The position numbers and the translations under genes are program-made. DNA of 64,000 nucleotides from Eonycteris spelaea (Eukaryota; Chordata; Mammalia; Chiroptera; Pteropodidae), in assembly GCA_003508835.1 (NCBI GenBank), contig PUFA01000210.1:2298501-2362500 (forward strand), read 5' to 3'. Within the stretch, counting starts at the first letter, position 1. Every line of letters begins with the position of its first letter. Below the pieces are notes generated by a model. It was not told where the DNA came from, did not search any database, and worked only from the letters and a program-made list of their open reading frames with translations. Positions 5,296 to 64,000 of the stretch are shown one piece after another.

Positions 5296-5650
5296 TATAT
5301 AATATTTATATTATTTATATTGTGTGTTCACCTCCCATACTTAGATTTCTTTCTGTCACCACATATTTGACCCCATTTTCCCTGTCTACCTCCCCCTCTT
5401 CCCCACTCCCTACCCTCTGGTTACCACTATAGTCATGTCCACGATTCTATAGTCCATGATTCTCTGTTTGTCCTGTTCATTTGTTGCTTTTAGGTTTATA
5501 TCTCACATGTAAGTGATATCATGTGATTTTCAATTGTTTCTGTTTGGCTTATTTCATTTGGCATGATTATCTCAAGGTTCATTCATGTTGTCGCAAATGA
5601 CAGTATTTCATCTCTTCTTACGGCTGAGTAATATTATATTGTATATATAT
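5126..5650 (-). mobile_element. L1 3'UTR/3' end, antisense, 5'-truncated
   Basis: The insertion starts with T-rich sequence (antisense of the poly-A tail). It continues with antisense L1 3'UTR and ORF2-end sequence (ccctctggttaccactatag, tcatgttgtcgcaaatgac, ggctgagtaatattatattg). It stops at 5650, flanked by a 15-bp target-site duplication, so this is a single retrotransposition into the MaLR internal region. Within it a compound microsatellite has expanded. Confidence 0.8.
5203..5310. repeat. Compound (TATG)/(TA)/(CA) microsatellite
   Basis: Runs of tatg, ta and ca alternate for about 100 bp inside the antisense L1 3'UTR, ending in AT-only sequence. Confidence 0.9.
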
Positions 5651-13585: not shown

Positions 13586-14019
13586 ACAGTGCCCAGGAAG
13601 CACCTCTTGTCTTAGTGGTTACTCTAGATGGCTTGAATAGAAGACCTTAGTGGCATGTGTATTAACTATATTTCCTCATTTACTGTATTCTTTTTTTAAA
13701 TTTTAATTTCTAAAGTTGATATTCAATAATATTTTATATTAGTTTTGAGTTTACAGCACAATGGTTAGACATTTATATAAGTCACAAAGTGATCCCCCTG
13801 ATAAGTCTAGTACCCTCCTGGCACTATACATGTTATTTTTTAAATTTTCTATATTCCCTATGCTGTACTTCACATCCCCATGACTGCTTTGTAACTACCA
13901 ATTTGCATTTGTTAATCCCTTCAACTTTTCACCCAGTTCCCCTACCACTCTCCCATTTGGCAATCACCAGTTTGTTCTCTGTTTCTGTTCTGTTTGTTCA
14001 TTTATTGTGTTCCTTAGTT

Positions 14020-17000
14020 TCCACATATAAGTGAAATCATAAGATATTTGTATTTCTCTGTCTGACTTATTGCACTTAGCATAATACTCTCTAGATCCAT
14101 TTATATTGTTGCAAATGGTAATATTCATTCTTTTTTATGGCTGAGTAATATTCCATTGTATTATAGTACCACTTCTTTTTTATCTAGTCATCTATTGATG
14201 GATACATAGCTTGCTTCCATATCTTGGCTATTGTAAATAGAGCTGCAGTGAATATAGGGGTGCATATATCTTTTCAAATTAGTGTTTTGGTTTTCTTTGG
14301 ATAAATACCCAGAAATGCAATTCTGGGTCATAAAGTAGTTCTATTTTTAATTTTTTGAGGAATCTTCAATCTGTTTTCCACAGCAGCTATACCAATTTGC
14401 ACTCCCACCCATGGTGTATGAGGGTTCCCTTTTCTCTACAACCTTGCCAAAACTTGTTGTTTTTTGATTTATTGATGATAGCCATTTAGAAAGGTATAAG
14501 GTGAAACTTCGTTGTGGTTTTAATATGCATTTTTCTGGTGATTAGTGACATTGAACATTTTTCATATGTCTATTAACCATCTATGTTCACTTTGGAAAAA
14601 TGCCTATTCAGGTTCTCTGCTCATTTTTTAAATTGGTTTTTTTTTGCATGTACATTGAGTTGTATGACTTGTTACAGATTTTAGATATTAACTCCTTATC
14701 AGATAAATCATTGACAAATATATTCTCCCATTCAGTGGGTTGTCTTTTTATTTTGTATATGGTTTCCTTTGCTGTGCAAAAACTTTTTAGTTTGATGTAT
14801 TCCCATTTGTTTATTTCTTCTTTTGTATTCCTTGCCCAAATAATATATCAGAAAGAAATATTAATATGAGCAATGTCAGAGTTTATTGTTTATGATTTCT
14901 TATAAGAGTTTTATGATTTGGGGTTTACATTTAAGTCTTTAATCCATTTTGAGTTTATTCTTATATATGATGTAAGGAGGTGATCCAGTTTCACAATTTT
15001 TTGCATGTATATGTCTGCTTTTCCCTACACCATGTATTGAATAGCCTGTCTTTTCCCCATAGTATAGTCTTGCCTCCTTTGTCATAGATTGGCAAATTTA
15101 TTTCTGAATTCTCAATTCTGTTTCATTGATCTATGTGCAAGTTTTTAGTTTGATATCAGGTAGTGTGATGCCTCCAACTTTGTTCTTCTTTCTCAAGATC
15201 GTTGTGGCTATCAAAGATCTTTTATGATTTCATATAAACTGTAGAATTATTTGTTCTAGTTTTGTGAAAAATGTCAATGACATTTTGGTAGGGATTGCAT
15301 TGAATCTCTAGATTGCTTTGGGTATTGTGGGTATTTTAATAATGTTAACTTTTTCTACTCATGAGCATAATATATACTTCCATTTATTTGTAACGTCTTC
15401 AATTTTTTTTCAATGGCATAATTTTTCAAGTGCAGGTGTTTACCTCTTTGGTTAAATTTTTCTAGATTTTATTATATTTTGATGCAATTATAAGTGGGAT
15501 TGTTTTCTTAATTTCTCTTTCTGATAGTTCATTATTGGTGTATAAAAAGCCAACTGGTTTCTGAATATTAAGTTTGTATCCTGCTATTTTAGTGCATTTA
15601 TTTATCAGTTCTAATAGTTATTTGGTGGAATCTTTAGGGTTCTTTATATGCAGTAACATCATTTGCGAATAATGACAGTTTTACTTCTTTTCCAATTTGA
15701 ATGCTTTTTATTTCTTTTTATTTTTTTGTCTGATTGCTGTGTTAACTAAAAGCAGTGAAAGTGAACATTCTCTTATTTTCTTGATCGTAAGGAAAACACT
15801 TTTAGCTTTTCCTCATTGAGTATGATATTAGCTGCGGGTTTGTCATATATAGCTTTTACTATGTTGAGGTATGTTTCTGAGATTCCCATTTTGCTGAGAC
15901 TTTTCATCATAATTGAATACTAGATTTTATCAAATGCTTTTCCTGCATCTATTGATGTGATCATTTGGTTTTTATTCATCATATTATTTATGTGCATATC
16001 ATGTTAATTGATTTGCAGATATTGAACTAACCTTGCATCCCAGGAATAAATCCCATATGATCATGGTGTATGATTTTGTAATGTATTGCTTTATTTGCTT
16101 TGCTAAAATTTTGTTTTAGGGGATTTTTGCATCTATGTTCATTAATTTGGACGGGGAGGTGGGGAATAATGTCTGTCTGATTTTAGAATCAGGGCAGTAG
16201 TAGCCATAAATGAGCTTGGGAGCCTTCCCTTCTTTTGAATTTTTTGGACTAGTTTGAGAAGGATAGTTGCTGATTCTTCTTTGAATGCTTGGCAAAATTC
16301 ACCTGTGAAGACATTTGGTCCAGGACTTCAGTTTTTGAGAATTTTTCGATTACTGATTCAATTTCATTAGTAGTAATCAGTCTGTTCAGATTTTTTTGTT
16401 TCTTCTTGATTTAGTCTCAGAGGAGTATATGTTTCTAAGAATTTATCTATTTCTTCCAGATTGTTAAATTTATTGACATGTAATTGTTCATAGTATTTCC
16501 TTTTAACTCTTTGTATTTCTGTGGTGTCAGTTGTACTTCTCTTTCATTTTTGATTTTATTTATTTGGATCTTCTCTTTTTTTGTGTGAGTCTGGTTAAAG
16601 GTTTATCAATTTTGTTTATTTTTTCAAGGGACCAGCTCTTGGTTTCATTAATCTTTTGTAATGTTTTGTGGGTTTATATTTCCCTTATTTCTGCTCTGAT
16701 CTTTATTATTATCTTCTTTCTATGCACTTTGGGGTTTCCTTGCTGTCTTTTTCTTTAGTTCCTTTAAGTGTAAGTTTAGATTGTTTATTTGAGATTTTTC
16801 TTATTTTTTGAGGTAGGCCAGTATTGCTATGAATTTTCATCTAGAACTGCTTTCACTGTGTCCTGTACATTTGGGGTCATTGTGTTTTCTTTTTCATTTG
16901 TCTCAGGTATCTTTTGATTTCTTCCTTGATCTCATTGTTATCCCTTTCAGTGCAAAGTAGCACGTTATTTGACCTCCACGTGTTGGTGTGTTTTTCAGTT

Positions 17001-17789: not shown

Positions 17790-18650
17790 AAGAAGCCTCT
17801 TTAACATTTCTTCTAATTCTGGTTTATTGGTGATGAACTCCTTTAACTTTTTTCTGTCCAGGAAACTTTTTATCTCATCTTCAATTTTAATTGACAGCCT
17901 TATCAGGTAGAGTAGTCCTGGTTGTAGGTTCTTTCTTTTCATGACTTTAAATATTTCTTGCCAGTCTCTTCCAGCTGCAAAGTTTCTGTTGAGAAATCAG
18001 CTGACAGTCTTAAGGGAGCTTCATTGTAGGTAACTAATTGCTTTTCTCTTGCTGCTTTTAAGACTCTTCCTGTCTTTAACCTTTGGAATTTTCATTGTGA
18101 TATGTCTTGGTATGTGCCTATTTGGATTCATTTTGGGGTTGGGGGATTTTTGAGCTTCCTGGACTTGTATGCCTATTTCTTTCACCAGGTTAGGAAAATT
18201 TTCAGTCATTATTTCTTCAAATAGGTTCTCATTCCCTTGCTCTATCTCTTCTCCTTTTGGCACCCCTATGATGCATATATTGTTCTTGATATTGTCCCAG
18301 ATGTTCCTTGAACTATCCTTAATTTTTTTAAATTTTGTTTTTGCTGTTTTGATTGGGTGTTTTCTGCTAGGTTTTCTTCAAGTTTGCTTATTTAATCTTC
18401 TGCTTCATCTAATCTATTGTCTATTTCTTCTAGTATATATTTCATTTCAGTTATTGTAATCTTCATTTCTGACTGGTTCTTTCTATGCCCTTTTTAATGC
18501 TTTCTATTTCTTTAAGTTCTCACTGAGATCATCTGTTGTTCCCCTAAGTTTATTGAACATCTTTATAACCAATGGTTTGAGCTCTGTACCTTGTAGGTTT
18601 TCATTTAGTTCTTTTTTTGGAGTTTTCTCTTGGTCTTTTATTTGAGACAC
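17790..18650 (-). pseudogene. L1 ORF1 (RNA-binding protein) pseudogene
   Basis: On the minus strand an 80-codon piece at 18,021-18,263 carries the recognisable ORF1p centre (NLFEEIMTENFPNLVKEI, then VQEAQKSPN). The C-terminal region (antisense gtgatgaactcctttaact near 17,831) lies to the left. ORF1p is the trimeric nucleic-acid chaperone that coats L1 RNA. The N-terminal start is not clear. Frameshifts and stops separate the pieces. Confidence 0.8.
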
Positions 18651-21066
18651 TTTTCTTTGTTTTTAAATTTTATCTGCTTCTCTTTGTTTGTTTCTATGTA
18701 TTAGGTAGATCTGTTATGTTTTCCAGTCTTCACCAGGTGACCTTATGCAGTAGGTGTTCTGTGTGATCCAGTGGTGCAGTCTCCCTGATCACCTGCATCA
18801 GGTGCTCCAGGAGTGTCCCTTGTGCGAGTTGTATGTGCCCTCCTATTTTAGTTGAACCTTGATTGTGTTGGCTTGTCAATGGGTGGGATTGACTCTCACT
18901 TACTTGTCTGACTATGAAGATTAGCCATGCCCACAGTATATGGCTGCAATGTGGAGTGGGATTCTCTACAGTAGGCTTATGTTTCTGTTAAGACCACTCT
19001 TTTGGTGTGTGCCTGTGAAACTAATCAGGTGGTACTCTGCTGTGGTCTCACGCTAGCCTCTGAGTGTGTTGATTCTGAGGTCCCTTGGGGAAGGCTCTCT
19101 TGCAGGCCAAAGCTAGCTGCTGCCTGTGACCACCTGGGGCTACCTGGTAGGAGTTACAAAGCTATCTCCATTTGGTTACTACCTATGTTGGTCCTGGCAG
19201 TATATGGAAGAGGTCACACTGCAAACTGAGGATGATTGTCTTCAATACAGAGCCTAGGGCAGCTCAGCAAAAGGCCCAGGGCTCCCCACAGCCTGAGGCT
19301 TCCTACTGGCTGACTGTAAAACTCAGCAGCTGAAAGGGCCTCAGGAGCTATGTGAGATGGATGAGGTAGGGTCCCAGGGAGTCTCCAGGGTGGGAAAAGC
19401 TGTGTGCAGATTCAGATTTAGCGCCATGCTGAACCTGTGGCTATTTGCAAAAGTCTGAGATTACACTGAAGCCAACTGCTGCCCACCTTGGGCCTCAGAC
19501 TCCCAATATTTGTTCAAGAAATACTATAACTCAGTCTAGGGCTGGTATCCCACCACAGAAAGTGACACTGAAGGTGTGCAAATCAATGCCTGTTGATTAC
19601 TGCTGAAGGAGTATCCTGCTGAGAGCTCAGGGTGAGGCTGGTTGCCTAGACACAAAAATACCTCTAGCAATGTGCAAATTGGGTGGAGTGGGTCTCAGGG
19701 AGTCACCAGGGTGGAGCTAGTGAATTTCACCAGTCCAATGCAGATTCAGATTTGACCATGGGGAAAGGGTTCAGTATAAGCAAGATGGCACCCACCTGTG
19801 GGCTGCACAAGAGAAGGGCTCAACGAAATGAAATTAACACCCATCTCTCCAGCCGCTACTCTGAAACAACACAATTCAGTCTTTCTCTGTATGTCTTTGG
19901 TTCCTCCTGAGCTACTGTCCCTCTGCTGGAGCCCAGGGTGAGTGCATGCAAGTGAGTCTGTGTGGACCCTTTAAGTGAATGTCTCGGTTTCCAGCAGCCT
20001 TTCATTTTACCCTGACAGTTGAAATCCCTGCTGATTTTCACACTCAGATTTTGTGGGGACTCCTCTTCCTGGCAATGGAACCCTGGGCTTGGGAGCCCTG
20101 GTTTGGGGCAGAGGCCCCTTGCTCCTCTGGGGATGAATAAGGACCCCTATTTTATGAGACTCACAGTGTTGCCTGGCCTCACCTCTTCTTATCCTATAGC
20201 TTGTAACTGCACACAAAATTAAATTCTTTAATATAGTTTTTTTTCTCTGATCCAAGCTGATTTTGACCAGATAATGGCATTGTGACTCATTGCCTTTTCT
20301 CCCCACCCTTATCCTCTGTATGCCTGCTCCTTTAATCATTAAGCCTTAGTACATAAAATGAACCAAGCCTTAAATTTATAATCATGAGGACAATAGGTTT
20401 TGGTTGGACTTTAGACTAAGGATGACATCTCGGCTTTAGATGTATTTTAACCCCAGGCCCATTGAAGCAAATCTACAACCCCACTAGCCAAGGAACTAGG
20501 TATTGGACCAGATGGAATGGCATCATGACTGATTCCAGAACCAGACACAATGATCAATTACATCATCCGTTTTTAGTCATCCAATCAGTAAGTAGCACTG
20601 GCCACACCAACACCTTTAGATTCCATGATGACTGATATTTCCTTATGTAATCTGTGCTTCTGAAATACTTGGGGAAGGGGTGCAGGGGAAGGCCTTTGAG
20701 CACTAACTCATCTGTGAATCCAGGGATTGCAATTCTCCAATAAATGCTTATTCTATTTAGCCCAACTCATGTTGAGTTTTGACTGAATGGGGCAGGCAGC
20801 GCAAGTCTTTGGACTTATTTGTCCTCCAGTTTCAGGGGGAACCTCCACAGCTGAGATATCCTTCCCGAGGCAACCAGTTTTACATCTTCATTCCTCTTAT
20901 CAGTCTTGATGTGCTTCCTCTTTATGTTCTTAGCTGTAAGAGTTTTGTTGCGGTCTTCAGATGGCTCTCCAGGTTGATTGTTCTGTAATTTGGTTGTAAT
21001 TTTAATGTGGTTGTGGGAGGAGGCAAGCATAGCATTCACCTACTCTGCCATCTTAACTCTACCCCT
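18651..21066 (-). promoter_or_regulatory. L1 5'UTR (internal promoter region), antisense, split by LTR
   Basis: GC-richer than the rest of the L1. The far right end (20,835-21,066) is the promoter-proximal terminus. A block at 19,369-19,420 (cagggagtctccagggtg, then cagattcagattta) recurs at 19,691-19,754 (cagggagtcaccagggtg, then cagattcagatttg), suggesting an internal partial duplication about 320 bp apart. The 5'UTR is interrupted by a 701-bp LTR-like insertion. Confidence 0.7.
20134..20834 (+). mobile_element. Solo-LTR-like insertion within L1 5'UTR
   Basis: The L1 5'UTR is colinear up to gctcctctgggg (20,132) and resumes at gggggaacctcc (20,835). The 701 bp between start with TG and end with CA, as LTRs do. 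They carry an AATAAA signal at 20,739 about 95 bp before the end. A short G-rich duplication (gggga, 20,129-20,133 and 20,836-20,840) flanks it, allowing one base of slippage. No internal retroviral sequence is present, so it is best read as a solo LTR of an endogenous retrovirus. The family is not recognised. Confidence 0.6.
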
Positions 21067-27770: not shown

Positions 27771-28100
27771 ATCTGCCAATTTAACAATCCCCTCAATGTG
27801 ATGGTATTAGGAGGTAAGGCCTTGGAGGTGATTAGGTCATGAGGGTGGAGTCTTCATGAACAGGATTAGTGCCTTACAAAAAAGACCCCAGAGAACTCCC
27901 TTGACCCTTCTTCCACGTGAGGACACGACAAAAAAGACTGGCATCTACGAACCAGGAAGGGGGAACTCATCAGACACTGAATCTATGGCACCTTGACCTT
28001 GGACTTCCCAGCCTCTAAAACTGTGAGAAATCAATTTCTGTTGTTTATAAGCCAACCAGTCTATGGTATTTTGTTATAAAAGCCTGAACAGCCTAGGACA
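27771..28100 (+). mobile_element. MLT1-type MaLR LTR, sense
   Basis: Very recognisable: caatgtgatggtattaggag, gtgattaggtcatgagggtg, cttcttccacgtgaggacac, ctgttgtttataagccaacc and an end at cctgaacagcctaggaca. It is slightly 5' truncated. Confidence 0.85.
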
Positions 28101-28375: not shown

Positions 28376-28532
28376 TATGGTAAATATATATTTTAAAAGA
28401 TCTAATATTATGTTATCCAAAAGAGGCACACTTAAAACAAATAGACCAATACATGTTGAAACTAAATGGGTGAGAAAGAAATAATAAGAAAATATGAGCT
28501 AAAAAATCTTGTGAAATGAATCTTAATATTTT

Positions 28533-28545
28533 AAAAGGCAATATT
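28533..28545. repeat. Left target-site duplication of tRNA/5S SINE
   Basis: aaaaggcaatatt, matching aaaagacaatatt at 28,784-28,796 (12 of 13). Confidence 0.85.
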
Positions 28546-28552
28546 TGGATGT

Positions 28553-28625
28553 GGTTCCATAGTGTAGCAGTTAGCATGTCTGCTTTATAAGCAGAAGGTC
28601 CTGGGTTTACACCCCAGTGGAGCCA
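28553..28625 (+). pseudogene. tRNA-Val-like 5' unit of the SINE
   Basis: The 73 nt fold as a tRNA. The acceptor pairs GGTTCCA with TGGAGCC (one G-T wobble). The anticodon stem is TCTGC/GCAGA with loop TTTATAA. The T stem is CTGGG/CCCAG. The sequence is closest to tRNA-Val(TAC) as I recall it, but the anticodon at 28,586-28,588 reads TAT, an isoleucine-type anticodon. The T loop is TTTACAC instead of the usual TTC-type start, so the B box is damaged. It is part of the SINE and not a free tRNA gene. Confidence 0.8.
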
Positions 28626-28634
28626 TGGTCCATG

Positions 28635-28756
28635 GTCTATGGTCATGCAGCTTGAACAAGCCCAGTGTCAGAAGCTAAGATCTCAGAAGCTAAGCAGGGT
28701 CAGGCCTTGTTAGTACTTGGATGGGAAACTGCCTAAGAAGACCAGGTGCTGTAGGC
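28635..28756 (+). pseudogene. 5S rRNA-like 3' unit of the SINE
   Basis: Runs from GTCTATGGTCAT to GGTGCTGTAGGC, 122 nt, against about 118 nt for the same span of mammalian 5S rRNA. The internal promoter is the best-kept part: GAAGCTAAGCAGGGTC (A box) and TTAGTACTTGGATGGGA (C box) are intact or nearly so. A 12-bp word, tcagaagctaag, occurs twice (28,668-28,679 and 28,683-28,694); only the second copy is expected in 5S. Confidence 0.85.
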
Positions 28757-29274
28757 ATAAATAATAATAAATAATAAAAAAATAAAAGACAATATTATCA
28801 TAAAGAACAAAGAATGATATCACAATCACATTCTTATAAATTTAAATATAAAAACCATAAGAAATACTCATCATACACACATTTGGACCTATCCATATAG
28901 ACCCTAACTATATTAAACAAAATCTACAAGAACTAAGATGAGAAATAGATGAAACAATAACTTTAGATGAAGTTTGAACATACCCCTTTGAGACACTGAT
29001 TGCACAAAGTGACAAAATGTAAGTATACATATTAAGCACATAAACAATAAATTTATTAAGCTCAAGCAACTGTATATGAAATTCTACACCCAATAGGCAG
29101 AAAGGATATATTTTTTCAAAGACACATGTAAGAGTTATAAAAATAGGTCATTTATTTGGCTTTAAAACAAGTCTTAGGAATTCCAAATGTTCAGTGCATC
29201 CAAACTATCTTCTCTAACCACAATGCAGTAAAATTAAAAATCAGCAATAAAAGGAAGGAGCTTTAAAAACCAAT

Positions 29275-34309: not shown

Positions 34310-35340
34310 TCTATAATTTTATATAAAGTGTTCAGTATCCTTAACTCCTAGCAACCACTAAGAAGTTCTCCATTTCTAAAATTTTGTTATTTTGAAAATA
34401 TTATATAAATGGAATCATAAAGTATATAACCTTTGGCTTTTTTAACTCTGCATAATCCCTTGGGTATTCATCACGTGTATCAACATTTGGTTACTTTTCA
34501 TTTCTAAATAGTATTCCATGGTAGCTATATATCACAATTTAACCATTCAGTGGTTGAAGGACATCTGGGATGTTTTCAGTTTGGGGATATTTTGACTAAA
34601 GCTGGTATGAACTGTCATGCATGTTTTTGTGTAGATATGTTTTCATTTCTCTGGGATAATGCTCAAGAAGACAATTGTTGGGTCATATAGTAATTGGATG
34701 TTTGATTTAATAAAAAAACAGCTGAACTGTTTTTTAGAGTGGTTGCATTATTTTATGTTTTCATCAGCAATGTCTGAGTAATCCTGTTTCTCTACATCCT
34801 TGCCAGGATTTGGTGTTGTTCCTTTTTTGTTTTAGTCATTCTGATAGGTGTATAGTGATGTCTCATCATGGTTTTTAATTTTTATTTCCTTGATGGCTGA
34901 TATTTGAAGCACCTGTTCATGTGATTATTTGCTCTATGTATATCTTCAGTGAAATGTCTTCCAGTCTTTTGCTCATTTTCTAATTGATTTTTTTTTTTTT
35001 TTACTGTTGAATTTTGAGAGTTCTTTATATATTTGAGATACAAGTCTTTTGTTAGAGGTTTGGTTTACAAACATTTTCTCCCAATCTCTAGCTTGTCTCT
35101 TTAGGCTCTTCACATGCGCTTTCGTGGAACAAAAACTTTGATATTGATGAAGTTTGCTTTATTAAGTTTTCCTTTTACAGATTGTGCTGTTGATGTTGAG
35201 TCTAAGAATTCTTTGCCCTGTCCTAAAAATTGAAAATTATCTCCTATTTTTTCTAAAAGTTTTATAGTTTTACTTTTACATTTCCTTGTGTAAAACATTT
35301 TGAGTAAATTTTTGTATTAGAAAGATTGATCCATTTCAAG
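34310..35340 (-). mobile_element. L1 3'UTR and ORF2 C-terminus, antisense
   Basis: Antisense blocks in order: aaatggaatcataaagtata, ctgataggtgtatagtgatg, gtctcatcatggtttttaat, tcatgtgattatttgctcta, caagtcttttgttagaggtt and acattttctcccaatctcta. It has a 5' truncation near 35,340. Confidence 0.75.
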
Positions 35341-40759: not shown

Positions 40760-42030
40760 AAGATTAAATGTTTGGGGGGTATATAGTTCTATGAATATTA
40801 CTCCATTTGTAGATTAGTATAATCACAGGATGCAGAACAGTTCCTTTGCCCCCAAAAGACTCTATTGTGCAACCTCTTTGTAGGCTTTTTGTAGACTCCC
40901 CATTCCCCTAACTCTTGGCAGACACTGATATATCCTCAATTACTATAGATTTGTCTTTTTGAGGATATCACATAAATGGAAGTATGCATTATGTAACCTT
41001 TGGAGACTGGCTTCTTTCACTCGACATAATGCCTTTGAGATTCATCCAAGTTGTTTTGTGTATCAATAGTCTGTTCCTTTCTACTGCTGAGTGGTATTCC
41101 ATTGTATGGATATATCACATTATGTTTAACTATTCACTTATTGTAGATACTTGGACTGCTTCCAGATTTGGCAATTATGAATACATCTGTTATCAACATT
41201 TGATGTCAGCTTTTTGTGTGAATACGAATTTTCATATCTCTAAGGTAAAATACCCCCAAACGGGATTTCTGGGTCCTATGGTAAATATATGGAGAGCTTT
41301 ATACAAACTGCCAAACTATTTTCTGGAATGTCTGTATTATTTTTCATTTCCAAGCAATGTATGAGAGTTCCAGCTGTTCTGTGTCCTTACCAGCACTTGT
41401 GTGTCTTATTTTAGCCATTCTAATAGGTATATAGAAGTATCTCCTGTGGTTTTAATTTGCATTTCCCCAATGGCTAGTGATGTTGATTATCTTTTCAAGT
41501 GTGTGTATGTGTGAGTGCGTGCACGTGTGTGTGTGTGTGTGTGTGTGTCAGTGTGTTTTACCACATATACATATGCTTAGGTGAAGTGTTTGTTCAGTTT
41601 TCTGTCTTTTTTTAGTGTTGGAATCATGTTACCTATAGCTCAGTTTGAGAATTGACATGATTACCGTGTTGTCTTCCAATATATGAGCACCATATGGCTC
41701 TCCATTTATTTAGATCTTCTTTGATTTCTTTCATCAGCATTTTACAGAGTTCAGCATAGAGATATAATACAGGTTTTGTGAGATTTATATCTAAGTATTT
41801 AATGTTTTTTAAAGCTACTATAAGCAGTGGTTTTTTTTAAAAATTCCTGTTCCCAATTGTTTATTGCTATTATATATAAATACAATTGATTTTTGCGTGT
41901 TGCCTTATGTCCTATGATTTGCTAAACTCACTTATTATTTTCATGAGCTTTTTATAGATTTATTGAGGTTTTCTACGTAGCAAATCACATCATCTGTGAA
42001 TAAGGACAGTTTTATTTCTTTCCCAGGCTT
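40760..42030 (-). mobile_element. Ancient L1 3'UTR and ORF2 end, antisense
   Basis: Antisense blocks: gtattccattgtatggatat (41,095), accccc-flanked gggatttctgggtcctatgg (41,262), tatacaaactgccaaactat (41,301) and tggttttaatttgcatttcc (41,446). ORF2 text then continues to 42,030 with an internal deletion. The 126-codon plus-strand frame at 40,984-41,364 lies entirely on the antisense strand of this L1. Confidence 0.75.
41499..41556. repeat. (TG)n microsatellite within L1
   Basis: An imperfect TG run with gtgcgtgcacg in the middle and a perfect part at 41,525-41,548. Confidence 0.92.
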
Positions 42031-48474: not shown

Positions 48475-49565
48475 ATTTTTTTTAATTTTTAAATTTTAAT
48501 GTTTTTTTTTTTCCAAACACAATTGATAGTCAATATTATATTAGTTTCAGATGTAGAGCATAGTGGTTAGGCATTTATATAATTTAAAAGTAATACCCTC
48601 GATAAGTCCCGCAGCCATCTGACATCATACATAGTCATTTCTTTATTGTTGACTCTATTCCTTATGCTATACTTTATATCCCATGACGATTTTGGAATTA
48701 CCAGTCTGTACTTCTTAATCCATTCAACCTTTTTACTCAGGCTCTCAACTTCCCTCTCGTCTGGCAATAATCAGTTTGTTCTCTGTATCTTTGAGTTTGT
48801 TTCTGTTTTGTTTATTTATTTTGTTTTTTGATTCTCCAAATAAGTGAAATAATATGACGTTTGTCTTTCTCTGTTCAGTTTATTTTGTTTAGCATAATAC
48901 CCTCGGGGTCCATCCATGTTGTTGCAAATGGCAGGATTTTATTTCTTTTCATTGCCAAACAATATTCCATTGTATATATGTACCTCATTCTCTCTATCCA
49001 ATTATCCATTGATGAACACTTAGGTTACGTCCATATCTTGGCTATTGTAAATAATGCTGCAATGAACATCGGGTGTGTATATCTTTTTAAATTAGTGTTT
49101 TCAATTTCTTTTGATAAATACCCAGAAGTGGAATTGCTAGGTCCTAAGATGGTTCAATTTTTAATTTTTTGAGTAAACTCCATACTGTTTTCCATAGTGA
49201 GTGCACAAATTCGCAGTCCCATTAACAGTGCACAAGGGTTTTCTTTTCTCCACATCCTCACCAACGCTTGTTTGTTGATTCACTGATGATAGTCATTTTG
49301 ATAGGTGTAAGGCCATATTTCATTGTGGTTTTCATTCACAATTTTCTGATGATTGGTGACATTGAGAGTCTTTTTATCTATCTATTGGCTATCTGTATAA
49401 CTTTTTGGAGAAATGTCTTTCAGGTCCTCTGCTCATTTTTTAATCAAGATTTATTTTTTTGGTGTTAAGTTGTATAATTTTTAAATAAATTTTGGATATT
49501 AACCCTTTATCAAATGTATCATTGATAAATATCTTCTCCCACTTGGTAGGTTGTCTTTTTGTTTT
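48475..49565 (-). mobile_element. L1 3'UTR and ORF2 C-terminus, antisense
   Basis: T-rich start, then antisense 3'UTR (ttagtttcagatgtagagca) and ORF2 end (ttgttgcaaatggcaggatt, atccattgatgaacacttag, ataaatacccagaagtggaa). It stops at about 49,565 (5' truncation). It is the same L1 type as the copy at 13,690. Confidence 0.8.
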
Positions 49566-63178: not shown

Positions 63179-63185
63179 TCAAGAG

Positions 63186-64000
63186 GGTGGAGTAGTTAAA
63201 TGCTGTGCTCCCTCCTATAATCACATTAAAATTACAACTAAATTATAGAACAATCAAACTTGAGAAACATACGAAGACGAACTGAACAAAAGTCTTACCA
63301 CTAAAGATATAAAGAAGAAGCCATGTCAAGATTGGCATTGGGGCTGAGGTGCGGAATGGGATGATCCCATACCCATGTGTGTTGGGAATTGGGAGGGATA
63401 TCTCAGTCACCGAGGTCTCCTTTGAGAGGCAAGGGGTTCAAGCTCCACACTGAACTCCCAAGCCCAGAGCACCAGTGATGGGAAAAGGAGCCCACACAAC
63501 ATCTGGCTATGAAAATAAGTGAGGATTCCATCTGTCTGGGTGAGACTGAGCACTGCTAGAAATTCATGCATTCCCTTAAAGGGCCAACGCACAGCCTCAC
63601 TCACTTCCAGGCACTTGCCCTGGGGTCCTGTGGAGGGCCAGTAGCTCAGGAGGTGCCAGATAACTTCCTGGGCTACAGTCTTTCTCGGAAAACTCTTGGG
63701 GGTCTGAGGGCCCCAGGTAAGAACTGACTGGCCTTGCTGTGCTCTGTGCATTTTTCTGATTGGCCCCAGGCTCAGAACTGGTACCAAATCTGAATCTACA
63801 TTAATCTGTTGGGCACCACTCGCCCCATGCTGGTAACTCTTTGAGACTGCATCTAACCCAACTCACATACTGCCTTGAAGCTCTTTTAGTGACTGTGCCT
63901 TATGAGCAGCTAGGTGGCAGCAGGCATCAGGGTGCTCAGGCCAGGTATGGGTGGCAGCTGGCCTAAGTTGGTAGCATGGCCTCTCCCATATGTCTCTAGG
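63186..64000 (+). mobile_element. L1 5'UTR, sense, continuing off window
   Basis: Opens with agggtggagtagttaaatgc and attacaactaaattatagaa. It continues with gggagggatatctcagtcac, acacaacatctggctatgaa and cttaaagggccaacgcacag, in the order of the laurasiatherian-type L1 5'UTR. It is the same kind of 5' end as the antisense L1 at 13,690-21,066. It holds the internal promoter of an L1 whose ORFs lie beyond 64,000. The 126-codon minus-strand frame at 63,407-63,787 is antisense to it. A strong splice-donor word (ccaggtaag) is at 63,713. Confidence 0.85.

Follow-up and report, generated by a model that had tools for sequence, protein, structure and literature searches.

A hybrid tRNA/5S rRNA SINE, probably old and inactive, whose two units moved in one L1-type retroposition

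A tRNA-like unit and a 5S rRNA-like unit lie close together on one strand of the window, the whole 64-kb stretch of DNA analysed here. Their arrangement raises the question of whether two insertions came to lie side by side or whether a single mobile element carries both RNA units and, if so, to which family it belongs and in what state this copy is. We compared the two units with known RNAs, analysed the duplicated sequence around them, scored their internal promoters against consensus motifs and weighed the element against related SINEs and L1 chimeras. The features on which the argument is built are collected in Table 1.

Table 1. Features of the element and of its insertion site (positions in the window)
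Feature	Position	Strand	Basis or remark
5' target-site duplication, AAAAGGCAATATT	28533..28545	.	Starts at the TT/AAAA cut; TTTT at 28529-28532
Leader TGGATGT, 7 nt, from duplication to tRNA unit	28546..28552	+	Sequence, folds
tRNA-Val(TAC)-like unit with a TAT anticodon	28553..28625	+	Rfam, ARAGORN, alignment to human tRNAs
7-nt triplication CATGGTC/CATGGTC/TATGGTC over the tRNA/5S junction	28624..28644	+	Spans the 9-nt linker
5S rRNA-like unit	28635..28757	+	Rfam, alignment to human 5S
Imperfect 15-nt tandem repeat in the 5S unit, AGTGTCAGAAGCTAA / GATCTCAGAAGCTAA	28664..28693	+	12/15 alike
5S-type internal promoter	28687..28731	+	Match to consensus motifs
A-rich tail, TAA-like units, 26 nt	28758..28783	+	Sequence
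3' target-site duplication, AAAAGACAATATT	28784..28796	.	12/13 identical to the 5' copy

Two RNA units and their junction

Each unit matched a full Rfam model, tRNA (RF00005) with 59.5 bits against a gathering score of 29 and 5S_rRNA (RF00001) with 44.4 bits against 38, and these were the only two gathering-level matches in the 64-kb window. A laxer scan of the window returned 25 matches, consisting of the same two units and 23 matches below the gathering scores of their families; 21 of the 23 were to microRNA models and the other two to small nucleolar or Cajal-body RNA models. Near 5.2 kb a TA/CA-rich stretch drew nine overlapping microRNA matches. The units lie on the same strand and are joined by a linker of 9 nt (TGGTCCATG, 28626-28634) that holds no A tail. 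This bears out the sequence-only reading of the locus, which had placed a tRNA-Val-like and a 5S rRNA-like unit 9 nt apart. The head of the element is, as in SINEs, derived from Pol III-transcribed RNA, with both units recognised at the Rfam gathering level.

ARAGORN found a single tRNA in the window (28552-28626) and labelled it Ile via the anticodon TAT. The source of the unit was compared among ten tRNA sequences, all human. Val-TAC came out on top with a score of 102 and a gap-free alignment (62 of 73 positions identical), the next best being Val-AAC and Val-CAC at 46 each; tRNA-Ile was rejected as the source because Val-TAC scored far higher. Since Val-TAC is best by such a wide margin, the present TAT anticodon probably arose from TAC, and the earlier description of the unit as Val-like was right as far as these ten sequences can tell. 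Its stems are able to pair throughout (acceptor 7/7, anticodon 5/5, T stem 5/5), and the unit folds better than shuffled sequences (z -3.34), with a predicted minimum that is not a cloverleaf. Folding predicts that the leader pairs with the linker, which would extend the acceptor stem (z -3.06 for leader, tRNA unit and linker folded together), and the 3' end of the tRNA unit has no CCA in its sequence. The 7-nt leader together with the missing CCA points to a fusion that would have involved an unprocessed transcript, or the gene itself, rather than a mature tRNA.

The 5S unit was identical to a human 5S sequence at 97 of 118 aligned positions, with 8 gap columns. The unit has five extra bases because a 15-nt tandem repeat replaces ten bases; when the human reference was given this repeat, identity came to 102 of 123 with 3 gap columns and the alignment was gap-free across the repeat region. 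The predicted fold of the 5S unit is no better than that of shuffled sequences (z 0.67), nor is the fold of the whole element unusual (z -1.00). At the junction of the two units a 7-nt sequence is present three times, and the third of these, TATGGTC, belongs to the start of the 5S unit. A search of the whole window for such runs, with units containing all four letters and at most one mismatch, found this triplication only (seen in two registers). Both the triplication and the tandem repeat within the 5S unit could be usable as markers of the family.

One duplication around both units

The two copies of the target-site duplication enclose both units and the A-rich tail, and the duplication becomes 14 long with one mismatch when the preceding T is included. 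It begins at TT/AAAA, the L1 endonuclease site, which occurs at 0.2% of top-strand positions. When the same geometry was placed at random in this AT-rich window a 14-long match was reached in none of 5000 placements, and none of 127 other TT/AAAA sites had a copy of at least 12/13 identity 200-300 nt downstream. These controls uphold the claim that a 13-bp duplication (12 of 13 identical) flanks the pair with an A-rich tail, and the element has both the duplication and the 3' tail (28758-28783) of a SINE.

Taken singly, neither the tRNA unit nor the 5S unit is flanked by a duplication longer than 5 nt. With one duplication at TT/AAAA around the pair and none for each unit, both units moved together in one L1-type retroposition of the hybrid, as the sequence-only reading had proposed when it treated them as one retroposon. 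We also considered two independent insertions, in which a 5S-derived SINE would have landed beside or inside an older tRNA pseudogene. Such a history would agree with the match of each unit to a whole Rfam model, but no A tail separates the units and the clear duplication encloses the pair; it was rejected on the shortness of the single-unit duplications (at most 5 nt) and we regard it as exceedingly improbable.

The A-rich tail and the TT/AAAA cut agree with those of an L1-mobilised T-minus SINE. The tail contains AATAAA at 28766, 28773 and 28781, the last of these across the border between tail and duplication, and copies of this motif can arise from TAA-rich sequence; TTTT is absent from the element. 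T-minus SINEs are defined as lacking both a Pol III terminator and AATAAA (PMC8466645). Measured against that definition the element has no TTTT, yet it has AATAAA three times, a combination from which a single copy cannot decide the type of the family.

We consider it very likely that the locus holds an old, probably inactive hybrid tRNA/5S SINE, placed by one L1-type target-primed insertion and most likely belonging to MEG-TR. On this reading the A and B boxes of a source copy would have directed RNA polymerase III to initiate a few nucleotides ahead of the tRNA unit, and the transcript would have read through the 5S unit into the A-rich end. An enzyme, presumably that of L1, would have nicked TT/AAAA and primed on the A-rich tail, and the whole hybrid RNA would have been reverse-copied, leaving the 13-bp duplication behind.

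State of the promoters and age of the copy

The internal Pol III promoters of the SINE were scored by mismatches to consensus motifs. The A box of the tRNA unit has none, a level equalled at 23 sites of the window. Its B box region, GGTTTACACCC, is the best B-box match in the element and has 4 mismatches out of 10; the window holds 701 sites that do as well. Within the 5S unit, box A (28687-28701) has 0 of 15 positions mismatched, the intermediate element (28702) 2 of 8 and box C (28714-28731) 2 of 18, and neither box A nor box C has a second match of such quality in the window. With 4 of 10 positions mismatched in the B box, the tRNA-type promoter of this copy looks broken. Four of the 11 changes in the tRNA unit fall within the B box, that is within 11 of 73 sites (p 0.054), which is no more than suggestive of B-box decay. 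A special conservation of the 5S promoter boxes was unsupported (36 of 40 positions identical against 66 of 83 for the rest of the unit, Fisher p 0.20).

The element contains no CpG, and all 12 CpGs of the progenitors (three in Val-TAC and nine in 5S) have been lost. The rate of the CpG-poor window predicts only 1.0 CpG in 237 bp, so that their absence is weak evidence of age; the loss fits age in the family or in the copy itself. The nearest TTTT downstream is at 29111, so that RNA polymerase III transcribing this copy would continue for more than 300 nt into the flank. This copy is probably an old one and no longer active. The earlier reading of the locus had mentioned neither the TT/AAAA site, the 5' leader, the junction triplication and the 5S repeat nor the absence of CpG and TTTT.

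The window contains other repeats as well. A direct repeat of about 1 kb (13716-14754 and 48523-49565, 74% identity), to which shorter pieces including 5504-5649, 14128-14245 / 41074-41189 and 34833-35102 are related, appears to resemble bat L1 sequence. An open frame on the minus strand (18024-18377) matches, at E 3.2e-12, the RNA-binding-like domain of L1 (PF02994), the sole match in a Pfam search of 10 of the 72 listed open frames, and is probably part of an old minus-strand L1. Inverted copies were seen at 19903-20095 / 63455-63653 and at 20901-21054 / 63181-63334 (73% and 76% identity), and these two blocks are probably one repeat in opposite orientation. The sequence at 27790-28100 appears to resemble the end of a MaLR-type LTR.

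Relatives, family and meaning

No second copy of the element was found in the window, where comparison of the element with the rest gave chance-level pieces only (next best E 0.14). Exact-pattern scans of viral contigs with patterns from the element gave one match and no other. This contig, L001, was taken as a chance match and rejected as a relative: ARAGORN found no tRNA in it, and nothing resembling 5S was seen over the 251 bases read. A scan of prokaryote contigs with an element pattern gave no match. Both collections are a weak test for further copies of the element.

The lack of a second copy in the window and in these collections would also be in keeping with a one-off chimera, unique to this locus, made in a single L1 event by a template switch from a 5S-type SINE or 5S RNA to a tRNA, or from ligated RNAs. 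Also in its favour, L1 is documented to form chimeras with 5S rRNA and with tRNA in human, and its chimeras with U6 are as a rule full-length and sense (PMC13174262). Against it stands a hybrid family of the same design that has reportedly been published. Like the element, the 5S and tRNA chimeras are L1-type insertions joining cellular RNAs; they differ in that they are fused to L1, their 5S parts being typically truncated and antisense and their tRNA parts usually halves, antisense in most cases (PMC13174262), whereas both units of the element are full-length and sense. We thus hold a one-off chimera to be improbable and return to the hybrid SINE.

The family assignment turns on architecture. 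MEG-TR is a fruit-bat hybrid SINE that has a tRNA unit and a 5S unit in one element, and it was reportedly described by Gogolevsky, Vassetzky and Kramerov in 2009 (Genomics 93:494, a reference given in PMC7547651) together with MEG-RS, MEG-RL and MEG-T2. Our element likewise carries both units, and by this architecture, which is the whole of the match, it most likely belongs to MEG-TR. The A-rich tail and the L1-type insertion are the element's own features that we set beside it. MEG-RS and MEG-RL are 5S-derived SINEs of fruit bats that share the 5S-derived unit but are not known to carry a tRNA unit. As a SINE name MEG-TR was not found in the openly licensed literature searched, in which PMC7547651 was the one paper judged to deal with SINEs.

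Because the likeness to MEG-TR is one of architecture alone, the element could instead come from another hybrid family, in another host, that arose independently from tRNA-Val and 5S. To this we give a slim chance, since the tRNA/5S architecture is not known from hosts other than megabats. Few mammals, too, are named in reviews of 5S-derived SINEs (PMC3272025, PMC9599045). A comparable case is HaSE3 of the moth Helicoverpa, which resembles the element in being a chimera involving 5S rRNA and a tRNA-derived SINE; it differs in coming from an insect and in having a 5S head on a body and LINE-like tail common to HaSE1, an order unlike the tRNA unit followed by the 5S unit seen here (PMC3272025). 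The statement that SINEs with modules from two classes of Pol III RNA are rare was fair, but with HaSE3 as a precedent the rarity is not absolute (PMC3272025).

We return to MEG-TR as the preferred assignment, for which the expected density of copies can be estimated. MEG-related copies number up to 23,000 in Rousettus and up to 22,000 in Pteropus vampyrus (PMC7547651). If the genome is about 2 Gb in size, these numbers give about one copy per 90 kb, and one copy in 64 kb fits.

Taken together our results indicate that the element is a real hybrid SINE copy and probably another copy of a known kind. That kind is reportedly already in print, and what we have here looks like an ordinary old copy that adds little beyond the known hybrid family. 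A more speculative and rather unlikely idea is that the two types of Pol III promoter have different products, the tRNA-type giving the full hybrid RNA and the 5S-type a 5S-only RNA; one locus could then seed both kinds of copy, and loss of the B box, such as this copy shows, would turn it into a 5S-only source.

L1 activity is reported to have ceased in megabats some 24 million years ago (PMC4072516, PMC5322556), and the 5S-derived MEG SINEs are described as the sole SINEs known to be active in megabats (PMC7547651). If the host is a megabat, the loss of L1 set against MEG SINEs called active makes the age of such insertions a dating question. The junction triplication and the 5S repeat would provide exact markers for tracing the origin of the hybrid, and the same two markers could show whether 5S-only copies derived from it.
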